Made by a program: the position numbers and the translations under genes. From a virus: 42,689 bases of DNA. Positions 7,583 through 39,236 of the stretch are shown one piece after another. How positions within the stretch are numbered: the stretch's first letter is position 1; the number at the start of each line of letters is the position of its first letter. The stretch covers positions 10,794-53,482 of the IMG/VR virus record IMGVR_UViG_3300037963_004553; one strand, written 5' to 3'. The notes beneath the pieces are model-generated. The model did not search any database, was not told the origin of the DNA, and worked only from the letters and a program-made list of their open reading frames with translations.

Positions 7583-7849
7583 GTGTTAGTGGCTAGCCGT
7601 AAACACAATCTTAAACATAGATATGGCATTACAGAAGAAGACTATAACCAAATGGCAGAAGAACAAAAACATTGTTGTCAAATATGCAACAACAAACCAG
7701 TTAAACCTTTATATGTAGATCATTGCCACAGTACGAATAAAATACGTGGCTTGTTATGTCACAAATGTAATGTTGCTTTAGGTCATATGAATGATGACCC
7801 AAAGCAATTATTAAAAGCAGTTGAATATATCACCAAATACCAGGAATAA
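7583..7849 (+). CDS. Recombination endonuclease VII-like (HNH family) protein
   Basis: An 88-residue small nuclease of the endonuclease VII/HNH superfamily. Typical layout: RYGITEEDYNQM at the N-terminus, zinc knuckle CQIC (C32, C35), active-site DHCH (46-49), then LLCHKCNVALG (C59, C62) and a final helix. It may resolve branched DNA before packaging, or act as a free-standing homing-type nuclease. GTG starts are available at 7583 and 7589; no good Shine-Dalgarno decides between them. Its last 20 bases overlap, antisense, the end of the hli gene. Confidence 0.8.
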   Translation: MLVASRKHNLKHRYGITEEDYNQMAEEQKHCCQICNNKPVKPLYVDHCHSTNKIRGLLCHKCNVALGHMNDDPKQLLKAVEYITKYQE

Positions 7850-7961
7850 CTTGACCAGTTAAAGTATACGCACCAAGAGCAGCGACAATACCCAACATGG
7901 CAAGTCTTCCATTTAAAAGTTCACCTTGTTGTCTTTTACACTCGTTGTTTTCGCAAGACAT
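7830..7961 (-). CDS. hli: High-light-inducible protein (Hli / small CAB-like protein)
   Basis: A 43-residue cyanobacterial/cyanophage Hli. It carries the chlorophyll-binding signature E-x-x-N-G-R-x-A-M-x-G (E14, N17, R19, M22, G24) in one membrane helix, followed by TGQVIPGIW, the standard C-terminus of phage and marine cyanobacterial Hlis. Hlis sit in the thylakoid membrane, bind chlorophyll and carotenoid, and protect photosystem II during stress; phages carry them to keep photosynthesis running during infection. Two N-terminal cysteines (C3, C8) are unusual. The gene lies directly downstream of the Dps-like gene in the same direction, so the two may be co-transcribed. Its 3' end overlaps the endonuclease VII gene on the other strand. 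Confidence 0.93.
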   Translation of the reverse strand: MSCENNECKRQQGELLNGRLAMLGIVAALGAYTLTGQVIPGIW

Positions 7962-8000: not shown

Positions 8001-8540
8001 TTAATTTTTACGCAGCATAGCTTTAATCATCCAAGAAGATTTAAAAGCATCTTCGATAAGTTCACTGCAGTAATTTTCAATATCATATGCTTCTTGTTTA
8101 GCAGCCAACTTAATTACTTTTTTACAATTCATTCCAAAATTTTCAAGGTTCTTATAATAGACATAAAGCATAGAGTTACCGCTATAAGACTCCACATGAT
8201 CAAATTTTTTATACGTGCCAATCAAACCTTTAGCACACATTGGCATCATGAAATCAAGAGAGCGCACCAGTTCTCCGAGTCGATCAAATTGTTCTTGGTG
8301 TTTTTGATATTGTTTCTTGGTGAACTTATGTACACCAAAAAAATTAGATTCTTCGTAATTGAAATGAATCAAGTGCGATTGCAACATCAATTGAGCTGTC
8401 TCACTAGACAAGCAGATCAATTCATTGGCCAATCGACTTACGGGTTCACGCTTACTCTTGGGCTGTGGATCATTACTTACTGGCTCCTCTTGCCGCTCAG
8501 GAACCTGGTTAGGTTGTTCCAAAGAGATTCCACTATACAT
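8001..8540 (-). CDS. Dps-like ferritin-family protein
   Basis: A 179-residue protein with a predicted four-helix Dps/ferritin-like core after a charged 45-residue N-terminal extension. The ferroxidase-site spacing of E. coli Dps is reproduced exactly: H59 and H71 twelve apart, D86 fifteen after the second His, E90 four further on (equivalent to H51, H63, D78, E82). The block HFNYEESNFFGVH aligns with the conserved Dps helix. The position of the fifth ligand (D67 in E. coli) is Lys75, so the site may be altered or inactive. The C-terminal SSWMIKAML matches the final Dps helix. Dps proteins oxidise and store iron and shield DNA from peroxide. The neighbouring hli gene supports a photo-oxidative stress role. 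ATG 8540 is the first good start. Confidence 0.75.
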   Translation of the reverse strand: MYSGISLEQPNQVPERQEEPVSNDPQPKSKREPVSRLANELICLSSETAQLMLQSHLIHFNYEESNFFGVHKFTKKQYQKHQEQFDRLGELVRSLDFMMPMCAKGLIGTYKKFDHVESYSGNSMLYVYYKNLENFGMNCKKVIKLAAKQEAYDIENYCSELIEDAFKSSWMIKAMLRKN

Positions 8541-10269: not shown

Positions 10270-10867
10270 AGTTGGGTACGATTTTGACTCCCGAGGGAAG
10301 TAGTTCACCTTTTTCGTGGGCAGTGGAGATGGCATCAGGGTTGGGTATGGTTTCTGATTTAACCTTTTCATCTGTGCATAAAATCTTTCCGTTAAGATCA
10401 ATGCACTGTGTAGAGGTGGTGGTCTTTTTAACCATAGCGTATTTTAGACGTTCGTCATCAGTCCATTCGTCAGGAGAACTAGAAATTTCTAGCTTGTTTT
10501 TAATAGGTGAAATTGTAAATTCATAATCTTTACCGGTTATTTTATTTTCTTTTGCATGACCTCGACGACGTAACTCTATAAGCATTGAACGCATGGAATT
10601 TATTTGTGCTTGATGATGCTTGATTGCATCAACAATTTCTTCTTTGATTTGTTTACCTCGTTCTACTGCTGCTTCATTTTTTTTGATTTGATAGTAAACA
10701 CCATCAATTTTTCTAGAACGAAGCTTAGAACAAGCCTCAAGTTCAGCAAGAACAAGTTCTTTTGAGTTTGTATCAACTAAATCAAGACTACTATTTAATG
10801 CAGCATGATGTTGATACAGCTCAAATGTATTGAGTGTATTTAGTTTTGTTGGTGTGATTTGGTTCAT
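10226..10867 (-). CDS. Gp157-like siphovirus-type protein
   Basis: A 213-residue protein resembling the phage Gp157 family, which in streptococcal phages was linked to resistance or recombination functions but has no settled activity. Seen: an N-terminal helix LYQHH-type segment (17-30), a long central charged helix (about 45-100) with IDGVYYQIKKNEAAVERGKQIKEE-like pattern and RSMLIELRRRGHAKENK, then a beta region KDYEFTISPIKNKLEIS and a C-terminal LPSGVKIVPNYAI. This helix-then-strand order fits Gp157. Its ATG overlaps the stop of a 37-residue membrane peptide. Confidence 0.6.
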   Translation of the reverse strand: MNQITPTKLNTLNTFELYQHHAALNSSLDLVDTNSKELVLAELEACSKLRSRKIDGVYYQIKKNEAAVERGKQIKEEIVDAIKHHQAQINSMRSMLIELRRRGHAKENKITGKDYEFTISPIKNKLEISSSPDEWTDDERLKYAMVKKTTTSTQCIDLNGKILCTDEKVKSETIPNPDAISTAHEKGELLPSGVKIVPNYAIKSRILLDQTSS

Positions 10868-17413: not shown

Positions 17414-17602
17414 TTAAGCCCACGGCCAGCTTGGTTCTACATCAGCTTGCCATACGTCTGGATCAATAGGACGTTGACTTACATAAAAATTAAATAGGCG
17501 TTTCATTTCATCTAGTGAGACGCCTACTTTTTTTGCCATGATAGCTACATTAGTTTGACCTTTGTAGATAAGATCAAGAGCATCTTCTAATTCAAGCGAC
17601 AT
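17414..17602 (-). CDS. Small helix-turn-helix-like protein (62 aa)
   Basis: MSLELEDALDLIYKGQTNVA continues IMAKKVGVSLDEMKRLFNFYV, a pattern compatible with a helix-turn-helix (AIMAKKVGVSLDEMKRLF), then a Trp/Pro-rich tail. It could bind DNA. It overlaps the upstream zinc-finger gene by 11 bases and is convergent with the riboswitch-controlled gene. Confidence 0.6.
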   Translation of the reverse strand: MSLELEDALDLIYKGQTNVAIMAKKVGVSLDEMKRLFNFYVSQRPIDPDVWQADVEPSWPWA

Positions 17603-17927
17603 AATCTTCTATATGTTTCCATGTTTTTCTATGTTGAATTGAACGAATACAATTTTCAGACATACCAGTAAGCATCATTATGTTTTTAACTGGCACACCA
17701 TATTTAAGTTGCCTACGTATTTTTCTAACATCATCCTCTGTAAGAATAGAGTTTGGATTGTTTTTACCAGAAGCACGATCATAAACTCCTTTGCTTTTAG
17801 AAGCACAGCTTTTGCTGCAATAAGGACCTGCATGTCTGTGCGTAATACGATACTCTTCGCGTTTTCTTTCACGTTCAAATTTTGTTCCACAATAGGAACA
17901 AATTAATTTGACTGTTGGACGTGCCAC
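17592..17927 (-). CDS. Zinc-finger plus helix-turn-helix protein, homing-nuclease-like without nuclease core
   Basis: A 111-residue protein. The N-terminal zinc ribbon has CSYC (C10, C13) and YCSKSC (C37, C41). The C-terminal region GKNNPNSILTEDDVRKIRRQ, then GMSENCIRSIQHRKTWKHI, resembles the DNA-recognition repeats found at the ends of HNH homing endonucleases. No HNH catalytic core is seen, so it may be a regulator or a decayed mobile nuclease. GTG 17927 is chosen because GGAGG lies four bases upstream; the frame is open to ATG 17975. It overlaps the end of thyX by 25 bases. Confidence 0.7.
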   Translation of the reverse strand: MARPTVKLICSYCGTKFERERKREEYRITHRHAGPYCSKSCASKSKGVYDRASGKNNPNSILTEDDVRKIRRQLKYGVPVKNIMMLTGMSENCIRSIQHRKTWKHIEDYVA

Positions 17928-18568
17928 ATTGCCTCCGAAATAATAGGGAATTGTTCTTGAAAGATAGCCTTGCATTGCTCAGCAATCTCTTTGTGTTCTT
18001 GTTGCGTACCATTGGCAGTACGCAAATCTATGTAATGGAGCCATGACCTAAGTGTTCCGCACATAAATAATTTTGTGGGAGCAGACAAAGGTAATACAAA
18101 CCTAGCTGATTCTTTTGCTACACCATCAGACAACAATTCTTGATAAAGATGTTCAGCATCTTCATACATAATTGCTATTCGTCTGTAGTAGTCAGCAAGC
18201 TTTGGCTTGCCTAACTTCTGTTGCAAATCATCAGTGCTGTTTTGTCTGTTCTTATGATCTTGTGCTCTGAGATGTGGTAACTCAGGTCTACCAATAGTGT
18301 TGTTGTTTGCATAGCGTTGTGAGAATTCTTGGAAACCAAATGATGAATGGCGCAAGATCTGTGGACTGATTGCCCTGGTTGTACGTATCTCTACGCACAT
18401 TGATGCCATTTGAAATGGTGACCAGTGTTTATGTTTAATAAGATACTTTAATAATTTAGGACCTGTAGAAACATTCTTTGCATTAGCTGGAGCACTAACG
18501 CGGGCCATTTCTACAATGAGAGGCTCAGCTTCTTGTGTAGCCCAGATGAGTGACACATTGTCTTGCAT
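17903..18568 (-). CDS. thyX: FAD-dependent thymidylate synthase
   Basis: ThyX makes dTMP from dUMP using methylene-tetrahydrofolate, NADPH and FAD, and supplies thymidine for an AT-rich genome. Length 221 residues is normal. The signature region reads ILRHSSFGFQEFSQRYA (71-87): the ThyX motif RHR(x)7S is present except that the third residue is Ser75 instead of Arg. The C-terminal LFMCGTLRSWLHYIDLR and QQEH segments match the dUMP-binding end of the family (ordinarily Q-x-E-I-R). The gene follows tRNA-Leu in the same transcript direction. Confidence 0.9.
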   Translation of the reverse strand: MQDNVSLIWATQEAEPLIVEMARVSAPANAKNVSTGPKLLKYLIKHKHWSPFQMASMCVEIRTTRAISPQILRHSSFGFQEFSQRYANNNTIGRPELPHLRAQDHKNRQNSTDDLQQKLGKPKLADYYRRIAIMYEDAEHLYQELLSDGVAKESARFVLPLSAPTKLFMCGTLRSWLHYIDLRTANGTQQEHKEIAEQCKAIFQEQFPIISEAMWHVQQSN

Positions 18569-26856: not shown

Positions 26857-27096
26857 TTACTTCTGTGCTAAATCTTTATATGCTTTAGCTGCTTTAGCTG
26901 CTTCTCCCATTTTTCCGGTATCACCAATTTCACGGGCTAATTCACGCTTAGCACCCTGGGCGAAAGTCTGTACTTCTAGGGGTGTAGCCCCTTTATCAGC
27001 CATATCCTGCGCTGCAGTAGCAATACCTTCCAGTGCAACACCGCGTTGTAGGTTTTGTTCTTTTGTAAGCGGGGCTTCTAACATGTTATCTGCCAC
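26857..27096 (-). CDS. Hypothetical protein (79 aa)
   Basis: MADNMLEAPLTKEQNLQRGV then an Ala/Lys/Glu-rich helical chain (ATAAQDMADKGATPLEVQTF...KAAKAYKDLAQK). Lone leftward gene between origin and late block. The GTG at 27096 is only two bases behind the -10 box, so ATG 27084 is a likely true start. Composition resembles the virion-type proteins to its right, and it may be expressed late. Confidence 0.6.
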   Translation of the reverse strand: MADNMLEAPLTKEQNLQRGVALEGIATAAQDMADKGATPLEVQTFAQGAKRELAREIGDTGKMGEAAKAAKAYKDLAQK

Positions 27097-27098
27097 TT

Positions 27099-27127
27099 TT
27101 TATAGATATAGTCTATCTTAAGTACAA
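27099..27127 (-). promoter_or_regulatory. Promoter for the 26857-27096 gene
   Basis: Minus strand TTGTAC (-35, 27127-27122), a 17-base spacer, TATAAA (-10, 27104-27099). Predicted start of transcription near 27092, which would leave a leader of only a few bases before ATG 27084. Confidence 0.5.
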
Positions 27128-27188
27128 TTTTCTAAATTTTTCGGCTTAAAATAAGTTTATTAGTCAATAATTAGTTGATATTAAGTAA
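27128..27188. promoter_or_regulatory. AT-rich start region of the rightward late block
   Basis: This 61-base stretch carries the divergent starts. The sequence before ATG 27189 is nearly all A/T, with no clear Shine-Dalgarno and no assignable host-type -35/-10 pair. Confidence 0.35.
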
Positions 27189-29354
27189 ATGGCTCTTTCT
27201 CCTGCTGATTTTGCCGCATATAGCCGTGCAACCGGTACTTCTTACCCTGAATCACCGGAAGAACGGGCTCAATTAGTTCCTGAAGTCCGTGCATTCCGTC
27301 AAAGGCAACTTCAACCGCCTGAAAAACAGGAATCAAACTCTCTTGCCTTAGGTCTTGGCATTGGATTAGGTCTTGCAGGGGTTGGTGGAGGTTTAATGAC
27401 CCTGCGTGGACGGGCTAAGAAAGGAATTAAAGCAGATACTGCTGGCAAAAGTAGTGTAAAGATGACTGATCTTAGTGATCAGCAAGTACCAAAGTCTAAA
27501 ACGCAAGTATATAAAGATGTAGCAGCTAAAGCTGAAGAAGATTTACCGCAAGTAACTCGTCCTTCTGGTGGCGTAGATGAATCAATGTTAGTTACTGATC
27601 CTGAAACGGGAGAAATATATCGTCGTGGTGGAGATGCTTCGATTCGATCAAAACAAGCACAAGAAAATTTAAGTGATCGTGTTGATGAGCTTTTAGCAGA
27701 AGTCAGTGTTGGTGAAGCAGGTCAAATGCTTGCCGGACGTGAAGTAGCAGCAGAAGCTGGTCAAATGATGGGGACTGAATCAAGTCGTCAGTCAAACGTT
27801 GTCCGTCGCTTAGAAAAGGAAGAAGAAAGACAGGCAAAAAATATATTATCCGAATTGGCCCAAGAAACTCCAACCCTTACAGAAACGTATGAAGCTTTTG
27901 GTGAACCTGCAGCACAAGTACAAAACATTGAAGCTCTAAATACTGCTTCTGATCAAGCTGCTGCACCTATTGAACGTGCGGTACAAAGAAATGAAGATAT
28001 TGATGTTAGTGCTGCTCAGTCTTTCTTAAATCAACAACGTGATAAGTTGCAAGCTAAAGGTTTATCTCCTACACGTGTTGAACGTGTTCTTGCTTCTAAC
28101 CCTGAATTAATTGAAGCGGCAGAGTTATATGCAAGTACAGGTGATGAAGCAGTGTTATCTCGTTTTTCAGAACAACCTGCATCTCCTGTAACAGTTAAAC
28201 CTAAGTCTGTACTGTCTTTAGATTCAGACGAACTAGCAACAGGTTCTTTGTTTAAATCAGGAACTTTTGGTGAATTTGTAGATGACCTTGAAGGTAAAGA
28301 CGTAGATTTAACAAATCGTATTTCTTCTCTTGGTGCAGAGCAGCAACAGCTTGCCGGACGCCGTAAACAATTAGAAGAAGATTCATTAATGATTAAATCT
28401 GCAATGGATCGTGAGCCTATTGATAAAGATGATTACAGCCGTATGTATGGTCAGATGCAATATGAAATGCAGAATATGCCTGATCCCGCAAGTTTAAATG
28501 TAGACATTGGTGATGCAATGGCAGAACGAGATAATGTACGCGCTCAATTAAAAGGTTTAAAAGAACTAGGTGCCCAACAATTTTTAATTGATCAAACAGA
28601 AGGATCACGTGCATTTTATGAAGTTAATCCAGCCACTAATGAAATTATTCCTGAAACATTAGAAATTCGCCCTGGTCGTAAATCAATTGAACTAACTAAA
28701 GGCGGCGGTGGTCGCAATGTTTCCGAATTTACTGCAGGACTGCGTGAATCGGATTTAAAAGGACGTACTGTATTTGTTCCAGTAGATGAAAGTGCAATAG
28801 AAAGTAAACGCCCGGGAGCAGCTTTTGGTCCGTGGCCTAAAGAGTCTCTTCCGCCTTCTAGTTCTGTTACAACTAAAACAAGAGCGTCTGATGATGTAGG
28901 TAATCAATTAACAGGTTTTGAAGGAGACCGCACACAAACCGGTGGTCGTATGGGTTTATATGGTCCAGAACGTACCGATCGCAAAGGAGAACGTGCTACT
29001 GCAGGTCAACGTCCTACGCAAGTAACAGAAGATGAATTAATTAATCAAGCATTAATGGATTCAAGAGCTGACGAACTAGGAATTCCCACTCCACCAGATC
29101 GCGATTTAGTTTTTGTTGATGAACAAAAATATCAAAAGCCTGACAGACAGAACCGTTTGTTAGATTCTGAAATTCTGCGTCGGACTGCTATTGAAGGTCG
29201 TAATCCACAATCTTCATTAGCAGGAAGAGCACAACGGCAAAGTCGTCCTAGAATTGCAGCATTACGTCAGGAAGCAACACGCAGAAAAGCTGCTGGTGAG
29301 CCTTTAATGTCTAAAGCAGAAGCTTTTAATTTCCTTAGTAACTACGCTAAATAA
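27189..29354 (+). CDS. Putative virion protein (721 aa)
   Basis: The largest protein of the late block. Residues about 50-72 form a hydrophobic glycine-rich segment (SLALGLGIGLGLAGVGGGLM), which could insert into a membrane. The rest is a long hydrophilic, Glu/Gln/Ala/Arg-rich, mostly helical chain with coiled-coil potential (about 380-470) and a disordered Pro/Ser/Thr region (about 540-640). Such features occur in internal virion or ejection proteins, but no family match is claimed. First gene of the rightward operon, expected to be transcribed late. Confidence 0.7.
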   Translation: MALSPADFAAYSRATGTSYPESPEERAQLVPEVRAFRQRQLQPPEKQESNSLALGLGIGLGLAGVGGGLMTLRGRAKKGIKADTAGKSSVKMTDLSDQQVPKSKTQVYKDVAAKAEEDLPQVTRPSGGVDESMLVTDPETGEIYRRGGDASIRSKQAQENLSDRVDELLAEVSVGEAGQMLAGREVAAEAGQMMGTESSRQSNVVRRLEKEEERQAKNILSELAQETPTLTETYEAFGEPAAQVQNIEALNTASDQAAAPIERAVQRNEDIDVSAAQSFLNQQRDKLQAKGLSPTRVERVLASNPELIEAAELYASTGDEAVLSRFSEQPASPVTVKPKSVLSLDSDELATGSLFKSGTFGEFVDDLEGKDVDLTNRISSLGAEQQQLAGRRKQLEEDSLMIKSAMDREPIDKDDYSRMYGQMQYEMQNMPDPASLNVDIGDAMAERDNVRAQLKGLKELGAQQFLIDQTEGSRAFYEVNPATNEIIPETLEIRPGRKSIELTKGGGGRNVSEFTAGLRESDLKGRTVFVPVDESAIESKRPGAAFGPWPKESLPPSSSVTTKTRASDDVGNQLTGFEGDRTQTGGRMGLYGPERTDRKGERATAGQRPTQVTEDELINQALMDSRADELGIPTPPDRDLVFVDEQKYQKPDRQNRLLDSEILRRTAIEGRNPQSSLAGRAQRQSRPRIAALRQEATRRKAAGEPLMSKAEAFNFLSNYAK

Positions 29355-29356
29355 TC

Positions 29357-29584
29357 ATGACTGAAAAGAAAAAGAAAACCAAGAAAGATAAGAAGTGGAT
29401 TCAATCCGCAATCAAACGCCCTGGAACGTTTACCGCTAAAGCAAAGAAGAAAGGAATTACTTCTGCACAGCTTCAAGCGAATGTGGAAAAGAATCCTGAT
29501 GATTATGATGAGAAGACACGGAAGCAAGCACAGCTTCGTGAAACTCTTGTAAAATTAAACAAGAAGAAAAAAACTAAAAAATAG
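29357..29584 (+). CDS. Small Lys-rich basic protein (75 aa)
   Basis: MTEKKKKTKKDKKWIQSAIK then RPGTFTAKAKKKGITSAQLQ: a K/R-rich protein whose middle (PGTFTAKAKKKGITSAQLQANV) resembles a short motif found in viruses of plankton. Four small basic proteins of this kind occur in the late block. Likely DNA- or membrane-binding virion component. Confidence 0.7.
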   Translation: MTEKKKKTKKDKKWIQSAIKRPGTFTAKAKKKGITSAQLQANVEKNPDDYDEKTRKQAQLRETLVKLNKKKKTKK

Positions 29585-29586
29585 TT

Positions 29587-30189
29587 ATGCCATACGATAG
29601 TCGCTTAACTCGTCCTGAAAATTATTTAGACGAAGTTTCTCTTTTCTTTCGTAAAGGAAGAAGAGGACCACGTAAGATTGATTATGAAGAATCTTTTCGT
29701 GCTAAATCAGATAAACCTCCTTTTGCTTTTAATCGTTTTGGTGTAGACGAGCTTAGAAATAAATTAGTTAGTAAGAAACCAATTCTTAATGCACGACTAG
29801 ATTTTGTAAATGAAAATCCTGCTAACTTTGAATTGTTTACAGGCTTGGGTCGTTTTGATGTAGGACGAACTAATAAAGAAGATCCTGCAGCTAGTCTTTA
29901 TAGTTTTGATGAAGGCCGTGGTAATACAAAGTTAGATTTTAGACAATCACCAGAGTTTCAAGCAATTGGTGAGATGTGGCGTGAAAGATATAACTTAAGT
30001 CCTACTATTTCTCCTGGTGATCGAATTAAAAACCCGATGCCACGTGCAACTAATCCTGACCCTAAAGGTTATTTGATGGCAACAGCAGAACAACGTGCAG
30101 AAAACGAAATGGAAGGCAACATGAATATTGCGCAGTTGTTATCTGCATCTAAAGGAGAGATCGCAGAAGCTGAAAGTAAAGGGGCTTAG
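29587..30189 (+). CDS. Hypothetical protein (200 aa)
   Basis: MPYDSRLTRPENYLDEVSLF, FRKGRRGPRKIDYEESFRAK, then NRFGVDELRNKLVSKKPILNARLDFV: a soluble Arg/Asp-rich protein. No family is recognised. Starts two bases after the previous stop. Probably structural, by location. Confidence 0.6.
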   Translation: MPYDSRLTRPENYLDEVSLFFRKGRRGPRKIDYEESFRAKSDKPPFAFNRFGVDELRNKLVSKKPILNARLDFVNENPANFELFTGLGRFDVGRTNKEDPAASLYSFDEGRGNTKLDFRQSPEFQAIGEMWRERYNLSPTISPGDRIKNPMPRATNPDPKGYLMATAEQRAENEMEGNMNIAQLLSASKGEIAEAESKGA

Positions 30190-30214
30190 AATTAGAAATA
30201 ATAGTTATGAGTAG

Positions 30215-30772
30215 ATGGCAGGCGGATTACTAAAATTAGCAGGAAGTCTTTTAAAAAACAAAGGCTTAATGAAAGGTATTCGTAATGAAGCTTTAGTGAG
30301 TGGAGGACTTAATACTGGCGTTAATCTTTTAACAGGTGCAGATCCTCTTACAGCATTAGCTTATGGTTTGTCTGACACGGTTCTTTCAGGAACAGCACAA
30401 GGAGCAGTACGTGGTTTAAGAGGAAAAAAATCACGTTTAGAGTTACCAGCTAACGTTGCAGGTTCTGTTTTATCTGGGATACCTGTAGCAGCTATTGATC
30501 CTCGTATGAAACAAGAAGTAGGTACGCCACCGCCCCCTATGGCTCCTGCTGACGCAGTCATTAACGATAATCAGGCTGCACAAATTGAACAACAAAATAT
30601 TCAAAGAATGTTGTTAAATAATGATTTGCTAGCAGGACAATATATGCCTGGGACAATGTTTCAGCAAATGGGTGGAAGCAATACGAGAGCAACTTTACAA
30701 CAGTATTTAAATGATAAAGGGCCAACTATAGAAATGGATCCTAGAGCAATGGCATCAATCGTGGGGCTTTAA
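30215..30772 (+). CDS. Gly/Ala-rich putative virion protein (185 aa)
   Basis: Residues 1-75 are hydrophobic and Gly/Ala/Leu-rich (MAGGLLKLAGSLLKNKGLMK; VLSGTAQGAVRGLRGKKSRL), suggesting membrane interaction, followed by a Pro-rich loop (TPPPPMAPADAVI) and a helical Gln-rich end. Looks like a pore-forming or ejection-type virion protein; unproven. Confidence 0.6.
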   Translation: MAGGLLKLAGSLLKNKGLMKGIRNEALVSGGLNTGVNLLTGADPLTALAYGLSDTVLSGTAQGAVRGLRGKKSRLELPANVAGSVLSGIPVAAIDPRMKQEVGTPPPPMAPADAVINDNQAAQIEQQNIQRMLLNNDLLAGQYMPGTMFQQMGGSNTRATLQQYLNDKGPTIEMDPRAMASIVGL

Positions 30773-30774
30773 TT

Positions 30775-31854
30775 ATGGGACTCCGTACAGACTATTTAAA
30801 AGGCTGGCAGAAAGCTGTCAGTGAAATGGGGACAAGAGGAGATCGCGGTCATAGTGTTCTACCTATTACACAAGGAGCAAGAAAGTTTTACAAAGGTTTA
30901 GCTGATCAAGGGGTAACAACAGAAACACCTGTTCAGCTTGCTGGTGCAATGGGTGCAAGGTTATTAACTGATGTTGGAGAAGATGCAACAAGGCATTTAT
31001 ATTGGCGATACAATCACCCAATGGCGATTGCAGATAAATTAGCAGAACAAGCAATAGGCGATCGTCTTCTCAATTACACACCAACACAACGAGCAGCAAT
31101 TTCTTTAGCTGCAGTTGGTGTTCCTGTTAGTGCTTCTTTAGGAACGTTTGATGCAACTAATATTGGTGAGTTAGGTCGTCCTAAAGGTTTTGCACAGACT
31201 TATGCAGAGCAAGGTTCAGAAGATCGACGACAAACAGGACAAATTGCACCAGAACTGTTAGATCGTTTTGTTTTAGGTCGTCAAGGTCGTCCTTTAAAGT
31301 TTGAAACAGCTAAAGAAGATATTCCAGATTTAACAAAACAACGGTATGCAAATTATATGGATTTCTTGTATAACGAAAAAGGACCTTTAGGTGTTGGCGT
31401 TATTAAAGGTACGATGGAAAATTTACAGGGAGAACCTGAAGCACGTATTGTTGGTTTTCCCGTTGGTCTTCAAGCTGTAGGAGCTTTAACGGGTGGAGCA
31501 CTTGCTACCGGCGCTGCACTAAGGCAACAGACTCCAGAAACAGTCCCTGGGGGAATTGGGCCTAAACAACCAAGAACAATCAAAACCGAAGATACTTCTG
31601 AATCAGTTCCAGGTAAAAAATATGTAGATAAACAAGTGTATAGAGAAGGAGATACAAAAGTAAAAAGAGGCAAGAGTGTTACGAACAGAATGGGAAGCCG
31701 AACTGATTACATTGGTCCCAAGACACGTACTCTTGCTCTTATGGGAGGAGCAGGAGCCCTTACAGGTGCTTTAGCCGGTAAGTTAGCCAATACTTTATTA
31801 GCTTCAACTGGTCAATCTGATTTACCAACAACACAAGAGTATGGTATTAGTTGA
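30775..31854 (+). CDS. Putative virion protein with two hydrophobic segments (359 aa)
   Basis: It starts MGLRTDYLKGWQKAVSEMG. Hydrophobic glycine/alanine segments occur at about 105-122 (RAAISLAAVGVPVSASLG) and 320-342 (ALMGGAGALTGALAGKLA), with a further one at about 230-246. The middle is charged and soluble (DIPDLTKQRYANYMDFLYNE). Two bases separate it from the previous gene. Membrane-active internal virion protein is the best guess. Confidence 0.6.
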   Translation: MGLRTDYLKGWQKAVSEMGTRGDRGHSVLPITQGARKFYKGLADQGVTTETPVQLAGAMGARLLTDVGEDATRHLYWRYNHPMAIADKLAEQAIGDRLLNYTPTQRAAISLAAVGVPVSASLGTFDATNIGELGRPKGFAQTYAEQGSEDRRQTGQIAPELLDRFVLGRQGRPLKFETAKEDIPDLTKQRYANYMDFLYNEKGPLGVGVIKGTMENLQGEPEARIVGFPVGLQAVGALTGGALATGAALRQQTPETVPGGIGPKQPRTIKTEDTSESVPGKKYVDKQVYREGDTKVKRGKSVTNRMGSRTDYIGPKTRTLALMGGAGALTGALAGKLANTLLASTGQSDLPTTQEYGIS

Positions 31855-31891
31855 GATAGAATTTAAGTAATAAAGATATTTGTTATTAAAG

Positions 31892-32740
31892 ATGGTTGCC
31901 GGTAGAACAGATCCCAATCGTATCGCACAAGGAATGCCTTTAGCCATCGATGATCCGATGCTGCGTTTGCAAGGTGCATTTCGTAATCCGCAACAGTTTG
32001 CTGATTATTATCGGAACACTGTTCAAAATGTAATGGAGCCTACTGCTAAACGGGCTCAAGTTATTCAAAATAGTCTTGTCAATAATCCTGGCCGTTATGG
32101 TGTAATGGCAGGAGCACTGCTCCCTGGTGTTGGCACTGCTATTGGTGAACTACAAGCTGAACGTCCTGTAGGAGCTGCAGGCGCTGTTGTTGGTGGTGGA
32201 GTCGGTGCTGGTATTGGTTATGGTATTGCCAGCATGTTGCCAGGTGGTTATGGAAAAGTAGCCAAAGCAGCGTTACCTGTAATTGGTGGTCTAATTGGAG
32301 CCCCTTCTGGTGCGCAGGGAGCCGAATATGCTAAGCGTAAAATTACAAATCAACCAACCAAAGGTAAAGAAACTGAATTAGGCAGTCAACTTGCAGCGCG
32401 AGAACAAATTTTTGGTCAAAATCTCAGTCAACTTGAGCGTACTTTAGGTGTTAATACTTCCAGTCTTAAAGACTTAACTCAGTTCTATATGCAAGCAGAA
32501 CTAGAGCAGTTGCAAAAAATGAATCCAACGATTCAGAAGATGAAGAATGCTGAGATGATTCGTCAACAGGCGTTGATGAATACTCAAGCTAGTAACTACG
32601 CAATGCTGGGCACAGTAGCTACAGCAGGCCGTCTAGCAACTGGCGCACAGGCAGAAGCAGGTGCAAATCTACGCACTGCGTTAACTGCCGCTCCTTATGC
32701 TGGCAGTGTGCTGCAAGCACCCAACATTAGCTTTGGTTGA
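31892..32740 (+). CDS. Gly/Ala-rich putative membrane-active virion protein (282 aa)
   Basis: Residues about 72-140 are a run of glycine-zipper hydrophobic segments (MAGALLPGVGTAIGEL; GAVVGGGVGAGIGYGIASML; ALPVIGGLIGAPSG), then a long helical Gln/Met-rich region (about 165-230, likely coiled coil) and an Ala-rich end. This composition is typical of proteins that form a DNA-delivery pore in podoviruses. ATG 31892 is chosen instead of the in-frame TTG at 31880. Confidence 0.65.
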   Translation: MVAGRTDPNRIAQGMPLAIDDPMLRLQGAFRNPQQFADYYRNTVQNVMEPTAKRAQVIQNSLVNNPGRYGVMAGALLPGVGTAIGELQAERPVGAAGAVVGGGVGAGIGYGIASMLPGGYGKVAKAALPVIGGLIGAPSGAQGAEYAKRKITNQPTKGKETELGSQLAAREQIFGQNLSQLERTLGVNTSSLKDLTQFYMQAELEQLQKMNPTIQKMKNAEMIRQQALMNTQASNYAMLGTVATAGRLATGAQAEAGANLRTALTAAPYAGSVLQAPNISFG

Positions 32741-32748
32741 GGTTAACA

Positions 32749-33258
32749 ATGACAAAATCAAGTTCTAGTTTTTACAACCCGTCAATGCTTGCAAACCCTT
32801 TATTTGAAGGGATTGATATGAACTTGGGTCTTCCTCAATTAGCAGGACAATATATAGATTTTCCTTTTAACAGTGAAGAAGATGATGACGATGATAATGA
32901 AAAAACTACAAATAAACAACGAACTCCAATGGAAGAGCTTCTCTATAAAATGTATGGAGATGCCCAAGAGGAAAAAAAATACTATCGTTCTCCAGAATAC
33001 TTAGATGATATGTATAAACGAGCAGATGATTTGAACGCAAAGCAAATGGCCCGTGCTCAAAAGTACGGTAAAGAATCTGCTTTCTATGGCTTTATGTACC
33101 AGGGTCTACCTAAGTTAATGGCTCAAGCAGCCTTCTCAAAATATGCGTTTGCACCAGAAATGGTCAAAGGTGTACGGGATGCTTATAGTCGTATCCAAGC
33201 AACTCCTGCTGGATCCACTCAATACATGGCAGTTAATCCAATGGGAGGTATTGGATAA
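32749..33258 (+). CDS. Hypothetical protein (169 aa)
   Basis: A short acidic block (EEDDDDDNE at about 46-54), then a helical region with ARAQKYGKESAFYGFMYQGLPKL. Unrecognised, probably structural by location. ATG 32749 is preferred over an upstream TTG. The last codon overlaps the next ATG as TAATG. Confidence 0.6.
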   Translation: MTKSSSSFYNPSMLANPLFEGIDMNLGLPQLAGQYIDFPFNSEEDDDDDNEKTTNKQRTPMEELLYKMYGDAQEEKKYYRSPEYLDDMYKRADDLNAKQMARAQKYGKESAFYGFMYQGLPKLMAQAAFSKYAFAPEMVKGVRDAYSRIQATPAGSTQYMAVNPMGGIG

Positions 33259-33752
33259 TGAATTTAAATCTTGATGCTATTGGCAGCTATTCGGGCATTG
33301 GTGCTGATACACCAATGACTGGTTTTGGAGGTACGTCTGGCTTTGGTTCAGCTAACCCCAATACAAGTGGAGGCGGAGGCTTTTTAGGAGGTTTTGGTAA
33401 CTTCTTAAATAGTAACTTCATGTCTAACGTAGGCGGCCCTTTGCTATCTGCAGGCTTAAGTGGTTTATTTACTAATCAAGCAGCTAGAGGATATAGAGAA
33501 AGTGCATATCAAGCAACAGGGATAGGAGCATTAGCAGGTAAGAATGCAGCCCTCATGGACTTTGCCTTTGGCAATAAAAATGCAGATCTTGCACAACAAC
33601 GTCGTTACGATGATTCTATGTTCCAACTTAATTTGCAAAAAAGTAAGCCATTCCAAGATTTAGTTACTAAAGGAATAGCAATGAATATAGCCTCAAGAGA
33701 TGCCCCTGGATCTGAGATGCGTTCAGCCCGTTTCCAGACCATGTTTGGTTGA
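33258..33752 (+). CDS. Gly/Ser-rich putative virion protein (164 aa)
   Basis: The first 75 residues are glycine/asparagine/phenylalanine-rich (SGIGADTPMTGFGGTSGFGS), low complexity, then a soluble helical part (LMDFAFGNKNADLAQQRRYD). Resembles glycine-rich parts of tail or internal proteins. Coupled to the previous gene by TAATG. Confidence 0.6.
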   Translation: MNLNLDAIGSYSGIGADTPMTGFGGTSGFGSANPNTSGGGGFLGGFGNFLNSNFMSNVGGPLLSAGLSGLFTNQAARGYRESAYQATGIGALAGKNAALMDFAFGNKNADLAQQRRYDDSMFQLNLQKSKPFQDLVTKGIAMNIASRDAPGSEMRSARFQTMFG

Positions 33753-33792
33753 CTTGGGTCTGCGATAATTAGTAAATAAAGGATGTAAAAAA

Positions 33793-34494
33793 ATGGTTGC
33801 AATTTTACCGGCGTTAGCTACAGGAGCTTTATCAGCAGCTGGTGGTTTCGCTGCAAGCAACATTTTAGGCGGTTTGTTTGGTGGTGGTGGTGGTTCGTCA
33901 GGCGGCGGAGGAGGAGGAATTGATTTTGATGCTCTTCAAGACATCATTGCTCCCCCTGATTTTCTTTCTTCTTATGCGGAAAATCAATTTAATGTTAAGC
34001 CTAGGCTTGGTCCAAAAGATCTGGAGAAATATGAAAAGGCAATGGATAAGGGAAAGATAGATAAATATTCGCTTTTAGGTTTGTATGATAGCGGCGGTTT
34101 AGACCCAAGTGATAAAGCTTATCGTAATATATTGACAAGCACAATTGGTAGGCCCCGTGGTGAAGAATTAGCAGATGTTATTGGTAAGTCTATGTTTGGA
34201 GGAGGGACACCTTCTCGCGAACAAGTAAAAGACGCTTACAAGTATGCTTTAGTAACAGGTTCTACTGGTAGTCCAAAAGATGCGCAACAAGCTTTTGCAT
34301 CTTACTTTGCACAAACACCTGAAGGTATGAAAAACAGAATGCCATCTTCTCAAGAACTTCTTGCTGGAATGAGGTACGGTCCTCTTGTCGGGACCGAAAG
34401 TGGAGTTAAGTTATTTGCAGGAACGCCAGGTATGGATAGAATGTTTGATAGACAAGAATCAGCGCGAAGGTTCCGTGCTAATTCTTTCGCTTAA
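33793..34494 (+). CDS. Gly-rich putative virion protein (233 aa)
   Basis: A hydrophobic N-terminal segment (VAILPALATGALSAAGGFAA) and a glycine/serine linker (GGGGGSSGGGGGG at about 29-42) precede a soluble domain (IAPPDFLSSYAENQFNVKPR and onwards). The anchored-linker-domain layout fits a virion protein contacting membranes. A GGATG-like purine stretch lies 9-12 bases before ATG. Confidence 0.6.
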   Translation: MVAILPALATGALSAAGGFAASNILGGLFGGGGGSSGGGGGGIDFDALQDIIAPPDFLSSYAENQFNVKPRLGPKDLEKYEKAMDKGKIDKYSLLGLYDSGGLDPSDKAYRNILTSTIGRPRGEELADVIGKSMFGGGTPSREQVKDAYKYALVTGSTGSPKDAQQAFASYFAQTPEGMKNRMPSSQELLAGMRYGPLVGTESGVKLFAGTPGMDRMFDRQESARRFRANSFA

Positions 34495-34512
34495 CACTCA
34501 AGGTAAGTAACA

Positions 34513-35232
34513 ATGAAGTTTCAAGATTTTATGGATAAATATGGTGGTAAAGGAGGAACCAAAATCACCAGTAAAAGCATTAACAAAGCTAAAAAAGATG
34601 GTATTTCTGCTAATAAATTAAATAAATTTATTAATAAAGCAGAAAATAAAAACATCAAAACAAGTGTTCCCAAAGGACACAGTGGTGCGTATCTCACAGG
34701 AGGTGGAAGCTCTTCTTCTAGTGATGCTCAAGGGCGTACTGCTACAGAGATTGATTTAGGTGTTTATGAAGCAATGGCAGGTATTGATACTGCCAATGAC
34801 CACTTTTTAGCTCAAGGTGCCTATAACAATGCTCAAATTATTGCTGGCATTCGTTCAGATGCGGATAAATATGTAGCTGATGCTCAAGCGGGTGCATCAA
34901 TGTATGCATCAGACGCCAGTGTTGATATTGCAGGAATTACGTCATCAGCAGAAGAACGTTGGCGTAAGTATTTAGCTGACCAACAGCGACTTGGTGCAGA
35001 AAATGTAGCGACAATTCAAGGTGAATATAGTCTTTCTTTGCAGAATATTGTTACTGCAGGATTAAAAGACGTTGAAAAAATCCGTGGTGAGTTTGGTTTA
35101 GAAAGCGATAAAGTCCGTGGTGAATATGCTCTTGAAGGAGAACGCATCAAAGGTGATGCTGCACGTGATGTTGCATCAAGACAAAAAGATGCACAGATCT
35201 TCGGTTCTTTAATGTCAGGCTTCTGGTCTTGA
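34513..35232 (+). CDS. Helical putative structural protein (239 aa)
   Basis: Basic N-terminus with a recurring short motif (TKITSKSINKAKKDGISANK), a Gly/Ser spacer, then a helical region rich in Ala/Asp/Gly with repeating RGEFGLESDKVRGEYALEGE and GDAARDVASRQKD near the C-terminus, which looks like a coiled-coil repeat. Possibly a fibre or connector protein. An AGGTAAGTAAC leader precedes ATG. Confidence 0.6.
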   Translation: MKFQDFMDKYGGKGGTKITSKSINKAKKDGISANKLNKFINKAENKNIKTSVPKGHSGAYLTGGGSSSSSDAQGRTATEIDLGVYEAMAGIDTANDHFLAQGAYNNAQIIAGIRSDADKYVADAQAGASMYASDASVDIAGITSSAEERWRKYLADQQRLGAENVATIQGEYSLSLQNIVTAGLKDVEKIRGEFGLESDKVRGEYALEGERIKGDAARDVASRQKDAQIFGSLMSGFWS

Positions 35233-35281
35233 TAGTATTGAGCTATATTATAATTTTTATAGTTAACTAAAGACTTTTACA
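35233..35281 (+). promoter_or_regulatory. Possible internal late promoter
   Basis: An AT-rich gap with TATAAT at 35249-35254. The nearest -35-like hexamer, TTGATA (35229-35234), is only 14 bases upstream, shorter than the optimum. A weak internal promoter is possible. Confidence 0.3.
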
Positions 35282-35464
35282 ATGGCAAACGATCCGGGCG
35301 ACTCAGGTTCCAATACACAGGATGCAGCGGTAGACCTGGAAACGTTCCAGCAACTGCTTGACAAACTGGAAGGCTCTAAAAAGCGTCAACAACGTCAAAA
35401 GTCTGTTGAAGGACGCCGTGATATTTATTCACAGGGCTTAGCTTCAATGATGTCTAATTTCTGA
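35282..35464 (+). CDS. Small hypothetical protein (60 aa)
   Basis: MANDPGDSGSNTQDAAVDLE then TFQQLLDKLEGSKKRQQRQK: an acidic N-terminus, a short helix, and a basic end. Unrecognised. Likely a minor late-block component. Confidence 0.6.
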   Translation: MANDPGDSGSNTQDAAVDLETFQQLLDKLEGSKKRQQRQKSVEGRRDIYSQGLASMMSNF

Positions 35465-35486
35465 TCTACACTCATAGGTTATTTCA

Positions 35487-35729
35487 ATGGCTGCTGTCGA
35501 TAGTACTTACGCAGAAGATGATTACTTTGATCTTGACAAATATCGTCAAGCTGCAGGAGTAGCCTATGAATTTAGTAAGAAAAAAATGGAAGATGCTGGT
35601 GAGCAAGAACGTGCGACAATAGGTAAAGGAGCACAAGAAAAGCGCACGACTAATGAGCAAATGCAAGAGTTCTCAGAAAAGGACGAAGCAAGAGATTACA
35701 ACCAAGCACAGAAAGCTTACCGATTCTGA
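35487..35729 (+). CDS. Small hypothetical protein (80 aa)
   Basis: MAAVDSTYAEDDYFDLDKYR, then a strongly charged helical chain (KKKMEDAGEQERATIGKGAQ...). Could be a coiled-coil virion or scaffold component. Its C-terminal part overlaps the next frame by 77 bases (see findings). Confidence 0.6.
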   Translation: MAAVDSTYAEDDYFDLDKYRQAAGVAYEFSKKKMEDAGEQERATIGKGAQEKRTTNEQMQEFSEKDEARDYNQAQKAYRF

Positions 35730-36228
35730 TATCGACATTGAAGTTTTTCAGTGTTGGGTTGACAATTTAGATAGCGCAACGAAAGAGTCTTTCTGTTCTT
35801 TTGCAGAAGAGACTTTTTCTGCTATTCAGGTTTATTTGTATGCAAAATTTTTAGGGTATAACAGCAGTATTGTTGCTGTTGATTTGTGGTTAAAAGATAA
35901 CTTTTCCAAACCCGATCACTTAAAAGTTTTGTTAAACGAAATTGAAGAAATGCAAGACGATATTAGAAAATTAAGAATTGATATTGAAAATTTTGTTATT
36001 AAAAGGGATGTTGGTGTAGCCCGAATTGCTGCAATGCAAAAAGAACTCCGTGGAACTATTTCCCAAGTTGATTCTTTTGTTTCCTCTCGTGACCGCAAAG
36101 GTTTATTAATGGCAGGAGCTGATCGTGCATTAAGAGAATTAGCTTCTATTTTTAAAGATGATCCTATTGAAGGTCCATTACAAGAAGCTTCAATGAGTGT
36201 GTGGGCTAGAATGCAGTTTGAAGATTAA
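35653..36228 (+). CDS. Helical hypothetical protein, start uncertain
   Basis: The well-folded part is IDIEVFQCWVDNLDSATKES (about 27-46) followed by a long helical region with heptad character (LNEIEEMQDDIRKLRIDIEN) and a C-terminal helix. The first 22 residues from ATG 35653 (SKCKSSQKRTKQ...) overlap the preceding gene and look like another frame rather than a real N-terminus. A non-ATG start near 35730 or a +1 frameshift from the 35487 gene are alternatives. Role unknown, probably structural. Confidence 0.6.
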   Translation: MSKCKSSQKRTKQEITTKHRKLTDSDIDIEVFQCWVDNLDSATKESFCSFAEETFSAIQVYLYAKFLGYNSSIVAVDLWLKDNFSKPDHLKVLLNEIEEMQDDIRKLRIDIENFVIKRDVGVARIAAMQKELRGTISQVDSFVSSRDRKGLLMAGADRALRELASIFKDDPIEGPLQEASMSVWARMQFED

Positions 36229-36232
36229 TATT

Positions 36233-36475
36233 ATGGAAGTAAACGCGCCCCCTTTTGATAAACAATCCGTCAACAATATGTTGGCTGAGATTGCTAAAAA
36301 CAGGAGGTATAGTCCTGAGCTACCTTCTGTTCCCCCTCGGCAAGCAGATCAAGAGGCTTTTCAGGATTTAATGAATAACTCTCCTGAGCAAACAGAAGGT
36401 CCTGGACCACAACCGTTTCAGAATTTATTAAACGAACAACCACCTACACCTGAACAAGAAGAAGACGATGTCTAA
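36233..36475 (+). CDS. Acidic Pro/Gln-rich small protein (80 aa)
   Basis: MEVNAPPFDKQSVNNMLAEI and two similar short segments, AFQDLMNNSPEQ and PFQNLLNEQPPTP, so an internal duplication of (A/P)FQ(D/N)L(M/L)N is visible. Acidic, Pro-rich and disordered, resembling scaffold-like or small late proteins. Start 36233 lies just behind the previous stop. Confidence 0.6.
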   Translation: MEVNAPPFDKQSVNNMLAEIAKNRRYSPELPSVPPRQADQEAFQDLMNNSPEQTEGPGPQPFQNLLNEQPPTPEQEEDDV

Positions 36476-36629
36476 AAAGAAAATGCCTCCACAATTACTG
36501 GAGCACTTTAAGAAAAAGAATGAATCAAAAGAAGGGAAAAAAGCAGAGGAATCTGCTGAGAAAGGATTGAAAGCAGCTAAAGCAGCTAAGAAATACAAAG
36601 ACAAAGATAAAGACGAAGATAAAAAATAA
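36468..36629 (+). CDS. Small Lys-rich protein (53 aa)
   Basis: MSKKKMPPQLLEHFKKKNES then a Lys/Ala/Glu-rich tail ending in a KDKDKDEDKK repeat. Overlaps the previous gene by eight bases. DNA-binding or virion-associated by composition. Confidence 0.6.
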   Translation: MSKKKMPPQLLEHFKKKNESKEGKKAEESAEKGLKAAKAAKKYKDKDKDEDKK

Positions 36630-36634
36630 GGTAG

Positions 36635-36659
36635 TATTTAAACAGTAATAGTTTAAATA
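36635..36659 (+). repeat. Palindrome ending at the TerL start codon
   Basis: A perfect nine-base inverted repeat, TATTTAAAC / GTTTAAATA with loop AGTAATA, whose last base directly precedes the GTG of the terminase gene. It could sequester the start region of the mRNA or bind a protein. Confidence 0.7.
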
Positions 36660-38186
36660 GTGCCTTCTCATCGTCACCTTGCTTATAGACGTAATGCTCA
36701 AGCTGCTGCTAAAAAGCATAAAGTACGCAAGAGTGACAAAGAACAATTATTTGAAAAAGCTAGAGATGATTTTGGTTTCTTTTGTGAATATGTAGCGGAT
36801 AAACCTCCAGCAGAACACCACAAAGAATGGCATCGTCAACTAGTAACAAATAACGATAGTTCGTGTCTTCTTAAGATTGCAGGACCGAACATTGACCTAT
36901 TAGGCCCTAGAGGGTCTGCTAAATCGACTGTACTTGGCTTGTTTACTGCCTGGGCAATAGGTATTCATACGCAAGCCAAGAAGCCCTTACAGATCCTTTA
37001 TCTAAGCTATACAGTTGATATCGCACGTTCTAAATCAGCAACCATTAAACGTATTATTGAATCAAAAAAATATCAAGAAGTTTTCCCTACAGTTAAGTTG
37101 CTCAAAAATGTTACGAGTAATGAGTACTGGTCAATCGACCATAAATTTGCTGGTATTGATGTTACAGGTGAAGAACAATTTACTTTATGTGCAGCAGGAC
37201 TTAAAGGATCGGTGACTTCCAAACGTTCTCAACTTGTGGTAATTGATGACCCGATAAAATCTGCTTCAGATATTGGCAACCCAGACATCCGAAAGATGAT
37301 GCAGGATAACTGGAATGCTGTGATTGCTCCAACAATGTTTGAGGGTGGTCGTGCAATTTGTCTTGGTACTCGCTTCCGTCATGATGACATTCATTCGACC
37401 ACGTTCTGTCAGCAAAATAATTGGATGCAGATTGTTCTTTCTGCCATTTTAAATAACGAGGTGACCGGCGAGGAAGAGTCATATTGGCCTGAGATGTGGT
37501 CCCTAGACTATCTAAAAGAGAAGAAAAGGCAAGCCCCTATTGCTTTTTCTTTTCAATATATGAATCAAATTGTTAGGCAAAACGAACTTTCACTGGCACC
37601 AGAGCTTTTAGTTAAAGCAGAAATTGCCACTGAATTTGACACTCTTGGAATTGGTGTTGACCTTTCTGCTGGCACTAAAGAAAAAAATGACTACACCGTA
37701 ATGGTTCTCGGTGGTCGAATTGGCGATAAAATACATATTATTGATTACCGTAGGTTACGTGTAATGGGTAACCTAGAAAAATTAGATGCATTAAAAGAGC
37801 TTTTAAATGATTGGTCTGTGATCGGTCAACAACAAGATGGTGTTTACTTTCCTACATATTCAACTTGTGATATTTGGTCAGAAGCTGTGCAGTATCAAGC
37901 TTCTTTAGAAGCTGACTTTAAACGTATTTGCTTAAATAATGAGGGGCTTTATAATTTAATCTGGCATCCTGTTAAAGGTTTCCGTGCAGATAAATTAGCC
38001 AGGTTTAGAGGCATCATGGGAATGTTTGAGGATCGTAAAATAGTTTTTAACAGGTACCGTAACTTTACGACAATGTTTGAAGAGCTAACTAATTTTGGTG
38101 TTAGCAGTCACGATGATTGTGTTGATGCTTTAGTTTGGCTTGTAACAGGCTTAACACGCAAAGGAAAATTGCAATTGGATTACTGA
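36660..38186 (+). CDS. terL: Terminase large subunit
   Basis: The packaging motor, 508 residues: ATPase plus nuclease that cuts concatemeric DNA and pumps it into the prohead. Walker A is LLGPRGSAKST (80-90, K88), Walker B LVVIDDP (D196, D197 region). The nuclease end has GVDLSAG (metal Asp) and HDDCVDALVWL near 484-494. GTG 36660 is the first possible start in frame, directly behind a nine-base palindrome and without a Shine-Dalgarno. No small-terminase gene is recognised upstream. The next gene overlaps the stop as TGATG. Confidence 0.93.
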   Translation: MPSHRHLAYRRNAQAAAKKHKVRKSDKEQLFEKARDDFGFFCEYVADKPPAEHHKEWHRQLVTNNDSSCLLKIAGPNIDLLGPRGSAKSTVLGLFTAWAIGIHTQAKKPLQILYLSYTVDIARSKSATIKRIIESKKYQEVFPTVKLLKNVTSNEYWSIDHKFAGIDVTGEEQFTLCAAGLKGSVTSKRSQLVVIDDPIKSASDIGNPDIRKMMQDNWNAVIAPTMFEGGRAICLGTRFRHDDIHSTTFCQQNNWMQIVLSAILNNEVTGEEESYWPEMWSLDYLKEKKRQAPIAFSFQYMNQIVRQNELSLAPELLVKAEIATEFDTLGIGVDLSAGTKEKNDYTVMVLGGRIGDKIHIIDYRRLRVMGNLEKLDALKELLNDWSVIGQQQDGVYFPTYSTCDIWSEAVQYQASLEADFKRICLNNEGLYNLIWHPVKGFRADKLARFRGIMGMFEDRKIVFNRYRNFTTMFEELTNFGVSSHDDCVDALVWLVTGLTRKGKLQLDY

Positions 38187-38410
38187 TGGAACAACTTATA
38201 GCACTAGGCATTGCAGCCGTATCAGGCGGCGGTTGGTTTGTGGGAAAAGTCTTTAGCAGAATGCGATCACTAGAAGATCGTATCGACCGTTTACCTCTTG
38301 AATATGTTTTAAAACAAGATTATATTCGAGAGATGGAAAGAATGAATGATGAATTCAGTGAAATCAACACTAAGCTTGATAAACTTGTGGAAAAGATTCT
38401 TTCCAAATGA
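38186..38410 (+). CDS. Membrane-anchored coiled-coil protein (74 aa)
   Basis: MEQLIALGIAAVSGGGWFVG is a single hydrophobic helix, followed by charged heptad-like helix MRSLEDRIDRLPLEYVLKQD and MNDEFSEINTKLDKLVEKIL. Similar small phage proteins lie next to terminases and may be holin-like or tail/capsid accessory factors. Overlaps terL by one base. Confidence 0.7.
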   Translation: MEQLIALGIAAVSGGGWFVGKVFSRMRSLEDRIDRLPLEYVLKQDYIREMERMNDEFSEINTKLDKLVEKILSK

Positions 38411-38586
38411 GTTACTTTATTGAGGTTGAAGAACTGGAAAATGGTGATTTATATATCCAAATTCCTGAAGAAGTTATTGAAACTTTAGGCTGGGAGCCTG
38501 AAACACTATTGTCTTGGGACATTAAAGGTGACGGGATTATTGTTCAACGTTTGAATGGGGAATCAGGTTACGAACAGGTAGAATAA
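38407..38586 (+). CDS. AbrB/SpoVT-like small protein (59 aa)
   Basis: MSYFIEVEELENGDLYIQIP then EEVIETLGWEPETLLSWDIK and DGIIVQRL: the swapped-hairpin AbrB/MazE-type pattern (DLxIxIPEEVIExLGWEPxxLxxWxxxGDGIxVxR), common in cyanophages. It may bind DNA. ATGA overlap with the previous gene. No toxin partner is seen. Confidence 0.7.
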   Translation: MSYFIEVEELENGDLYIQIPEEVIETLGWEPETLLSWDIKGDGIIVQRLNGESGYEQVE

Positions 38587-38604
38587 TTAAAAAGTTCTTA
38601 GCCA

Positions 38605-38796
38605 ATGGAATTAGCTTATAAATATATGAGTCAAATTCCCCCTAGAGGAAAGAAGAAGTTTGACGAAGAATTTATGTACACCTCAGAAGGTAACATCAGT
38701 TCTCCCCGTCCTTCTCGTAATGTCGCACCTGCGTCTTTTTTAGGACCAGGAAGTAAAGGTGCTGGCTTTGGTAATGTTTCTACCAGAGGTATCTAA
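38605..38796 (+). CDS. Small hypothetical protein (63 aa)
   Basis: MELAYKYMSQIPPRGKKKFD then GNISSPRPSRNVAPASFLGP and a Gly-rich end. Disordered, unrecognised. Its stop shares a base with the next ATG (TAATG). Confidence 0.6.
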   Translation: MELAYKYMSQIPPRGKKKFDEEFMYTSEGNISSPRPSRNVAPASFLGPGSKGAGFGNVSTRGI

Positions 38797-39236
38797 TGAA
38801 TAGCTTAGTAGCGCAGCAGCAAGGATACACTTTTCCGATGGATGAAATTCCTAGAACGTATTATCCTGGGCGAGGCTTTTTAAGTGATCAAGAAGCTTAT
38901 CCAGAAAATCCTTTTTATCGACCACCCACGTATGGTGGCGGAATGAATGTTCCTGGTGCCCCTGGTAATGTTGCAGGAACAGGTGGGTTTACAAAGCTTC
39001 CTTATTATGGCGGCCCTACTAATCCAATGCTAATGCCTTATTATCCAGGGCAAGATTATGGTGGTGTACAACAGTTAACAGCCGATCCTAGTTATGCAAT
39101 TCCGGGAGGACAAACGCCTTATAGAAGAGGGCCTTATCTTCCCTTTGAAGACATTCCAGAAGATAATGCACCTTTTATTCCAATCCCCAGGGCGCAAGGA
39201 CTTCCTATGGGATTTCAAAATAAATTTGTAAGCTAA
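38796..39236 (+). CDS. Gly/Pro/Tyr-rich putative virion protein (146 aa)
   Basis: A low-complexity protein with YYPGRGFLS, YGGGMNVPGAPGNVAGTG, LPYYGGPTNPM and YYPGQDYGG, resembling disordered virion or adhesive proteins rich in Tyr, Pro and Gly. The last base of its TAA begins the next ATG. Confidence 0.6.
   Translation: MNSLVAQQQGYTFPMDEIPRTYYPGRGFLSDQEAYPENPFYRPPTYGGGMNVPGAPGNVAGTGGFTKLPYYGGPTNPMLMPYYPGQDYGGVQQLTADPSYAIPGGQTPYRRGPYLPFEDIPEDNAPFIPIPRAQGLPMGFQNKFVS

Follow-up and report, generated by a model that had tools for sequence, protein, structure and literature searches.

A Dps-family mini-ferritin with an altered ferroxidase site in cyanophages related to Synechococcus phage S-EIV1

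Introduction

Proteins of the Dps family form twelve-subunit cages with active sites lying between the subunits, and they oxidise and store Fe(II); to our knowledge, DNA binding is not universal among them. The bacterial members, such as Dps, MrgA and HP-NAP (Pfam PF00210), have an Asp or Glu at position 67 (E. coli numbering), which reaches the site-B metal only by way of a water (PMC6675082). NpDps4, a cyanobacterial protein of the His type, has Asn at this position; it takes up two iron ions and uses O2 to oxidise Fe(II) (PMC6675082). Dgeo_0257, a Deinococcus Dps that lacks the ferroxidase motif, binds DNA tightly (PMC9820295).

Dps is also encoded by phages. It has been published from Lactobacillus phages and gut phages (PMC8008677), ten phage proteins – from the lineage of Synechococcus phage S-EIV1 and from other lineages – match PHROG 3636, and a search with one phage Dps-like protein finds 86 phage records at E<=0.01, some of the matches being weak and partial or to short unannotated fragments. 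These records include phages of Salmonella, Proteus, Aeromonas, Streptomyces and Synechococcus, so that the view taken in a sequence-only reading of the DNA described here, that Dps is unusual as a phage gene, has to be given up. Phage Dps genes as such are already known; the gene described here encodes a conserved variant whose active site is altered across its whole lineage.

Here, we describe the dps gene of a cyanophage contig and its viral and cellular relatives. We refer to the whole stretch of DNA analysed – 42,689 nucleotides, positions 10,794 to 53,482 of IMG/VR record IMGVR_UViG_3300037963_004553 – as the window. It appears that an entire lineage of cyanophages has retained a cage of its own for oxidising or binding iron, and that the active site of this cage has been rebuilt. 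This would make iron and reactive oxygen in the photosynthetic host matter for the fitness of the phage. The family also constitutes a natural experiment in which ferroxidase ligands a Dps protein truly needs, and the rebuilt site B is its most interesting point.

Results and Discussion

A Dps-type protein encoded by a cyanophage lineage

The proposed cyanophage origin of the window is borne out by its TerL and PolA (family-A DNA polymerase) proteins, which are 82% and 66% identical, respectively, to those of S-EIV1; a DNA megablast of window positions 27000-39000 returned no match. The dps gene lies on the minus strand at 8001-8540, begins with ATG and encodes 179 amino acids. Its product matches PF00210 (Ferritin) at E=1.9e-12, with 47.7 bits against a curated cut-off of 24.5, and matches PHROG 3636 at E=6.5e-24 over the whole domain (residues 34-177 aligned to 5-148 of 149). 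The best PDB sequence matches are solved Dps proteins, down to E=5.9e-8. The NCBIfam model for DpsA of cyanobacteria (NF052461) gave 18.2 bits over residues 44-95, below its curated cut-off of 300 bits.

Structure prediction and comparison with Dps, which the sequence-only reading had named as the check on its Dps assignment, yielded a four-helix bundle. The AlphaFold model (a monomer, built on 31 sequences; mean pLDDT 86.9) has four long helices – A, residues 32-61; B, 67-94; C, 121-148; and D, 152-177 – and a short helix in the BC loop (103-109), and the N-terminal tail (1-31) is of low confidence and probably disordered. Among the Foldseek matches listed, the best are Dps-family entries, and VIA-align superimposes the model on Bacillus subtilis MrgA, the best PDB match, with Z 21.9 and an rmsd of 1.6 A over 148 residues. 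The BC-helix fold and the helix lengths are thus those of bacterial Dps, MrgA and HP-NAP. Comparison with three close relatives (82-87% nucleotide identity) gives dN/dS values of 0.12-0.14, and the reading frame is therefore under purifying selection. Profile match, structure and dN/dS together rule out a chance motif or a non-coding ORF, and from the profiles and the modelled fold we take the product to be a true Dps-family mini-ferritin.

The gene is not peculiar to this contig. S-EIV1 itself carries dps, annotated as 'DNA-binding ferritin-like protein' (AHV82153.1), and this protein is a member of the same family, 46% identical to that of the window. Twelve contigs selected by their terminase were searched for the gene: it is present in all five of 74-85 kb and in one of 64.6 kb, and absent from the six shorter ones (36-62 kb), which are probably fragments. 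Because S-EIV1 and all five of the long contigs tested carry dps, it probably belongs to the core genes of the lineage.

The ferroxidase site is altered throughout the family

The translation of the window gene contains the motif His59-x11-His71-x3-Lys75-x10-Asp86-x3-Glu90. Counting codons back from the ORF end at 8540, and all on the minus strand, the two ferroxidase histidines are encoded at 8364-8366 (His59) and 8328-8330 (His71), and the ligands Asp86 and Glu90 at 8283-8285 and 8271-8273. These four residues have the spacing of bacterial Dps, as had been noticed from the sequence, and so had the altered fifth ligand, Lys75 (8316-8318), a change that proves to extend to the whole viral family. 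We collected 53 loci in viral contigs, of which 52 belong to the same family and one, L059, encodes a distant Dps, and counted ligands over 46 distinct full-length viral relatives. His59, His71, Asp86 and Glu90 are invariant in 46/46. Position 75 is Lys in 33, Gly in 11, Arg in one and Gln in one, and is never Asp or Glu (0/46); each of the sequences has a basic residue at 75, at 76 or at both. Six proteins from terminase-selected records, two of which were already in the set, have an identical ligand pattern. With Lys in 33 of the 46 distinct relatives, a quirk or sequencing error of the window contig is ruled out as the source of Lys75. The S-EIV1 protein differs from that of the window in having Gly at this position.

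For comparison we used 82 cellular proteins with a Dps motif that lie outside the family, drawn from gammaproteobacterial genomes and from the phyla of two metagenome-assembled genomes (MAGs), L060 and L062, discussed below. The equivalent of position 75 (position 67 of E. coli) is Glu or Asp in 73 of these, Gln in five, Met in three and Asn in one, and is never Lys, Gly or Arg. Since an acidic residue is missing in nine of the 82 and in NpDps4, it does not define the Dps family. The two groups are also distinguished by the residue following the first His, which is Trp in 82/82 cellular proteins and Phe, Leu or Ala in the phage family. Half of the iron-oxidising site is thus, as judged from the aligned residues, rebuilt across a virus lineage, and the other half is strictly kept.

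A candidate for the missing carboxylate is Glu63, four residues past His59 (8352-8354, minus strand), which is present in all 46 distinct viral relatives and in seven of the 82 cellular proteins. Three of those seven cellular proteins lack the acidic fifth ligand, as do six of the other 75, an association that gives a weak p-value (Fisher p=0.026) among sequences related by descent. The distant phage protein L059 likewise combines Glu four residues past the first His with Gly at position 75, and L161, a MAG-derived relative, has Cys in place of Glu63. These patterns hint, but do not prove, that the lost carboxylate can be replaced by that of Glu63. An extended form of this idea, in which the Dps of the S-EIV1 lineage would be a new class of ferroxidase centre, with the site-B carboxylate moved from helix B (E. 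coli position 67) to just past the end of helix A and with iron or oxidant chemistry altered to suit infection of an oxygen-producing cell, seems to us possible yet rather doubtful.

Lys75 alone need not imply an inactive enzyme: the canonical residue contacts its metal through a water, and NpDps4 is active with Asn, so the loss of the acidic residue need not abolish activity. The likeness to NpDps4 lies in the absence of an acidic residue at position 67; the His-type proteins NpDps4 and TeDpsA differ in having His78 in place of the site-A Asp and an added His164, whereas the phage protein keeps Asp86 (46/46 family members), and the His substitution characteristic of that type is not present. 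Two features count against a ferroxidase: a lysine at or close to site B might keep iron away, and the conserved Trp beside the first His has been lost. The site could even have turned to something else, with Lys75 and Glu63 taking the place of the second metal, either for some new chemistry or for structure alone. The changes do cluster around site B (75, 63 and 60), and three further residues, His81, Cys102 and Arg93, do not vary within the family, but all four other ligands are kept, and the variation at residue 75 (K, G, R, Q) means that no single new catalytic residue has been fixed there; we consider such a conversion very improbable.

Proposed function

The reading we favour, with moderate confidence, is that the phage protein is a mini-ferritin cage in which Fe(II) binding and oxidation are dominated by site A, with a rebuilt site B, and which limits radical damage to replicating phage DNA. 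Twelve subunits would assemble into the usual cage, with the ferroxidase sites lying where subunits meet; Fe(II) would be held mainly at site A, by His59 of one subunit and Asp86 and Glu90 of the other. At the rebuilt site B, His71 and possibly Glu63 would serve for the missing carboxylate. Oxidation and storage of Fe(II) in such a cage would probably be slower than in canonical Dps or favour a different oxidant. With Fe(II) removed, Fenton chemistry would be limited, and with it the damage that hydroxyl radicals do to phage DNA as it replicates in a host that is illuminated and produces oxygen.

Any binding of DNA would be secondary. The converse – a cage without ferroxidase activity that binds, compacts or shields DNA, either the host nucleoid or the phage genome, in the manner of Dgeo_0257 – accords with the loss of one conserved ligand and of the Trp, and with an N-terminal tail that is net positive in 26 of the 46 family members. 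However, the net charge of the tail varies across the family between -6 and +7, with -1 in the window protein, which argues against a conserved DNA-compacting role for the tail, and site-A ligands invariant in 46/46 would be needless in a purely DNA-binding protein. The kept site A argues for a pattern of activity like that of NpDps4 rather than that of Dgeo_0257, and we regard the DNA-shielding alternative as unlikely.

Relationship to other phage and cellular Dps proteins

In a tree of 83 proteins, which leaves out cyanobacterial cellular Dps, a branch supported at 100/100 sets the cyanophage family apart; its stem is very long, at 4.24 changes per column, and the other phage Dps lie elsewhere. 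The proteins of PHROG 3636 from Salmonella phage 7-11, Proteus phage Privateer, Streptomyces phage Comrade and S-SRM01 share a phage-encoded Dps motif with the family, but fall outside the cyanophage clade, keep the His-Trp pair and mostly have Asp or Glu at the fifth position. Among these more distant proteins, that of cyanophage S-SRM01 (L063) and that of the viral contig L059 have Gly at the fifth ligand and no acidic residue; the two join at 93/81, outside the S-EIV1-lineage clade. A profile of the family scores 82 bits against Pseudomonas aeruginosa PA0962 and about 31-35 bits against the solved cyanobacterial Dps proteins that it matched. These scores make a recent acquisition from a cyanobacterial host look unlikely, and a host origin of the phage gene improbable.

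A genome scan found phage-type dps in only three contigs, all from MAGs, which are labelled Puniceicoccaceae (L060), Gammaproteobacteria (L061) and Euryarchaeota (L062); these are probably misbinned phage DNA. As the top matches in the first Pfam searches of genomes mostly lacked the Dps motif, searches with the A3 profile were used instead. Those of gammaproteobacterial genomes and of the phyla of the L060 and L062 genomes yielded no phage-type gene beyond the same MAGs, and the other proteins found had far lower scores and kept the Trp. A nearby cellular sister family is accordingly rejected for the genomes searched. Three BFVD entries annotated as 'prohead proteases' of uncultured phages (A0A6J7WPK9, A0A6J7XDU5 and A0A6J7WIS1) contain a region matching the Dps model, and Dps domains may thus be fused to capsid-maturation proteins.

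Gene neighbourhood

On the minus strand of the window, dps runs together with genes for a primase, an exonuclease, SSB, DNA polymerase and thymidylate synthase; the plus strand carries the terminase gene. From this arrangement we infer that dps is expressed together with the replication genes. Upstream of dps, the neighbouring genes, mostly of unknown function, recur in 23-36 of 55 loci; 26 of the loci have an exonuclease gene on the opposite side. In S-EIV1, the gene adjoins an annotated sulfate adenylyltransferase.

The shared strand with DNA polymerase and thymidylate synthase would also suit a metal cage that supplies or buffers iron (or zinc or manganese) for phage nucleotide synthesis, with no part in defence against oxidants. 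In unrelated phages, namely Salmonella 7-11, PKM.Hi.22.6, Proteus Privateer, Aeromonas LAh_8 and Escherichia EK010 (L064, L067, L068, L069 and L070), dps lies beside or near thyX, dCTP deaminase, thioredoxin or ribonucleotide reductase genes. The immediate neighbours in the window and its relatives are nevertheless mostly of unknown function and not nucleotide-synthesis genes, and we think a supply role quite unlikely.

Directly downstream of dps in the window is a gene for a short high-light-inducible protein (hli; 7830-7961, minus strand; 43 amino acids; PHROG 178, E=2e-16). The sequence-only reading had seen in the two genes a stress pair. The hli gene is real and does adjoin dps here, but the adjacency is confined to the window and one close relative (L014); no hli match was obtained in seven of ten phage records tested, including that of S-EIV1, and another record has its hli about 27 kb from dps. 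A conserved dps-hli pair is thus ruled out.

Endonuclease ORFs also occur in these regions. A small Endonuclease VII-like ORF lies beside dps in the window (7583-7849, plus strand), and similar ORFs, possibly free-standing homing endonucleases, occur near dps in 21 of the 55 loci. Elsewhere in the window, an HNH endonuclease ORF (17592-17975, minus strand) overlaps the end of the thymidylate synthase ORF (17903-18568, minus strand), and may be a homing endonuclease sited at a gene of nucleotide metabolism.
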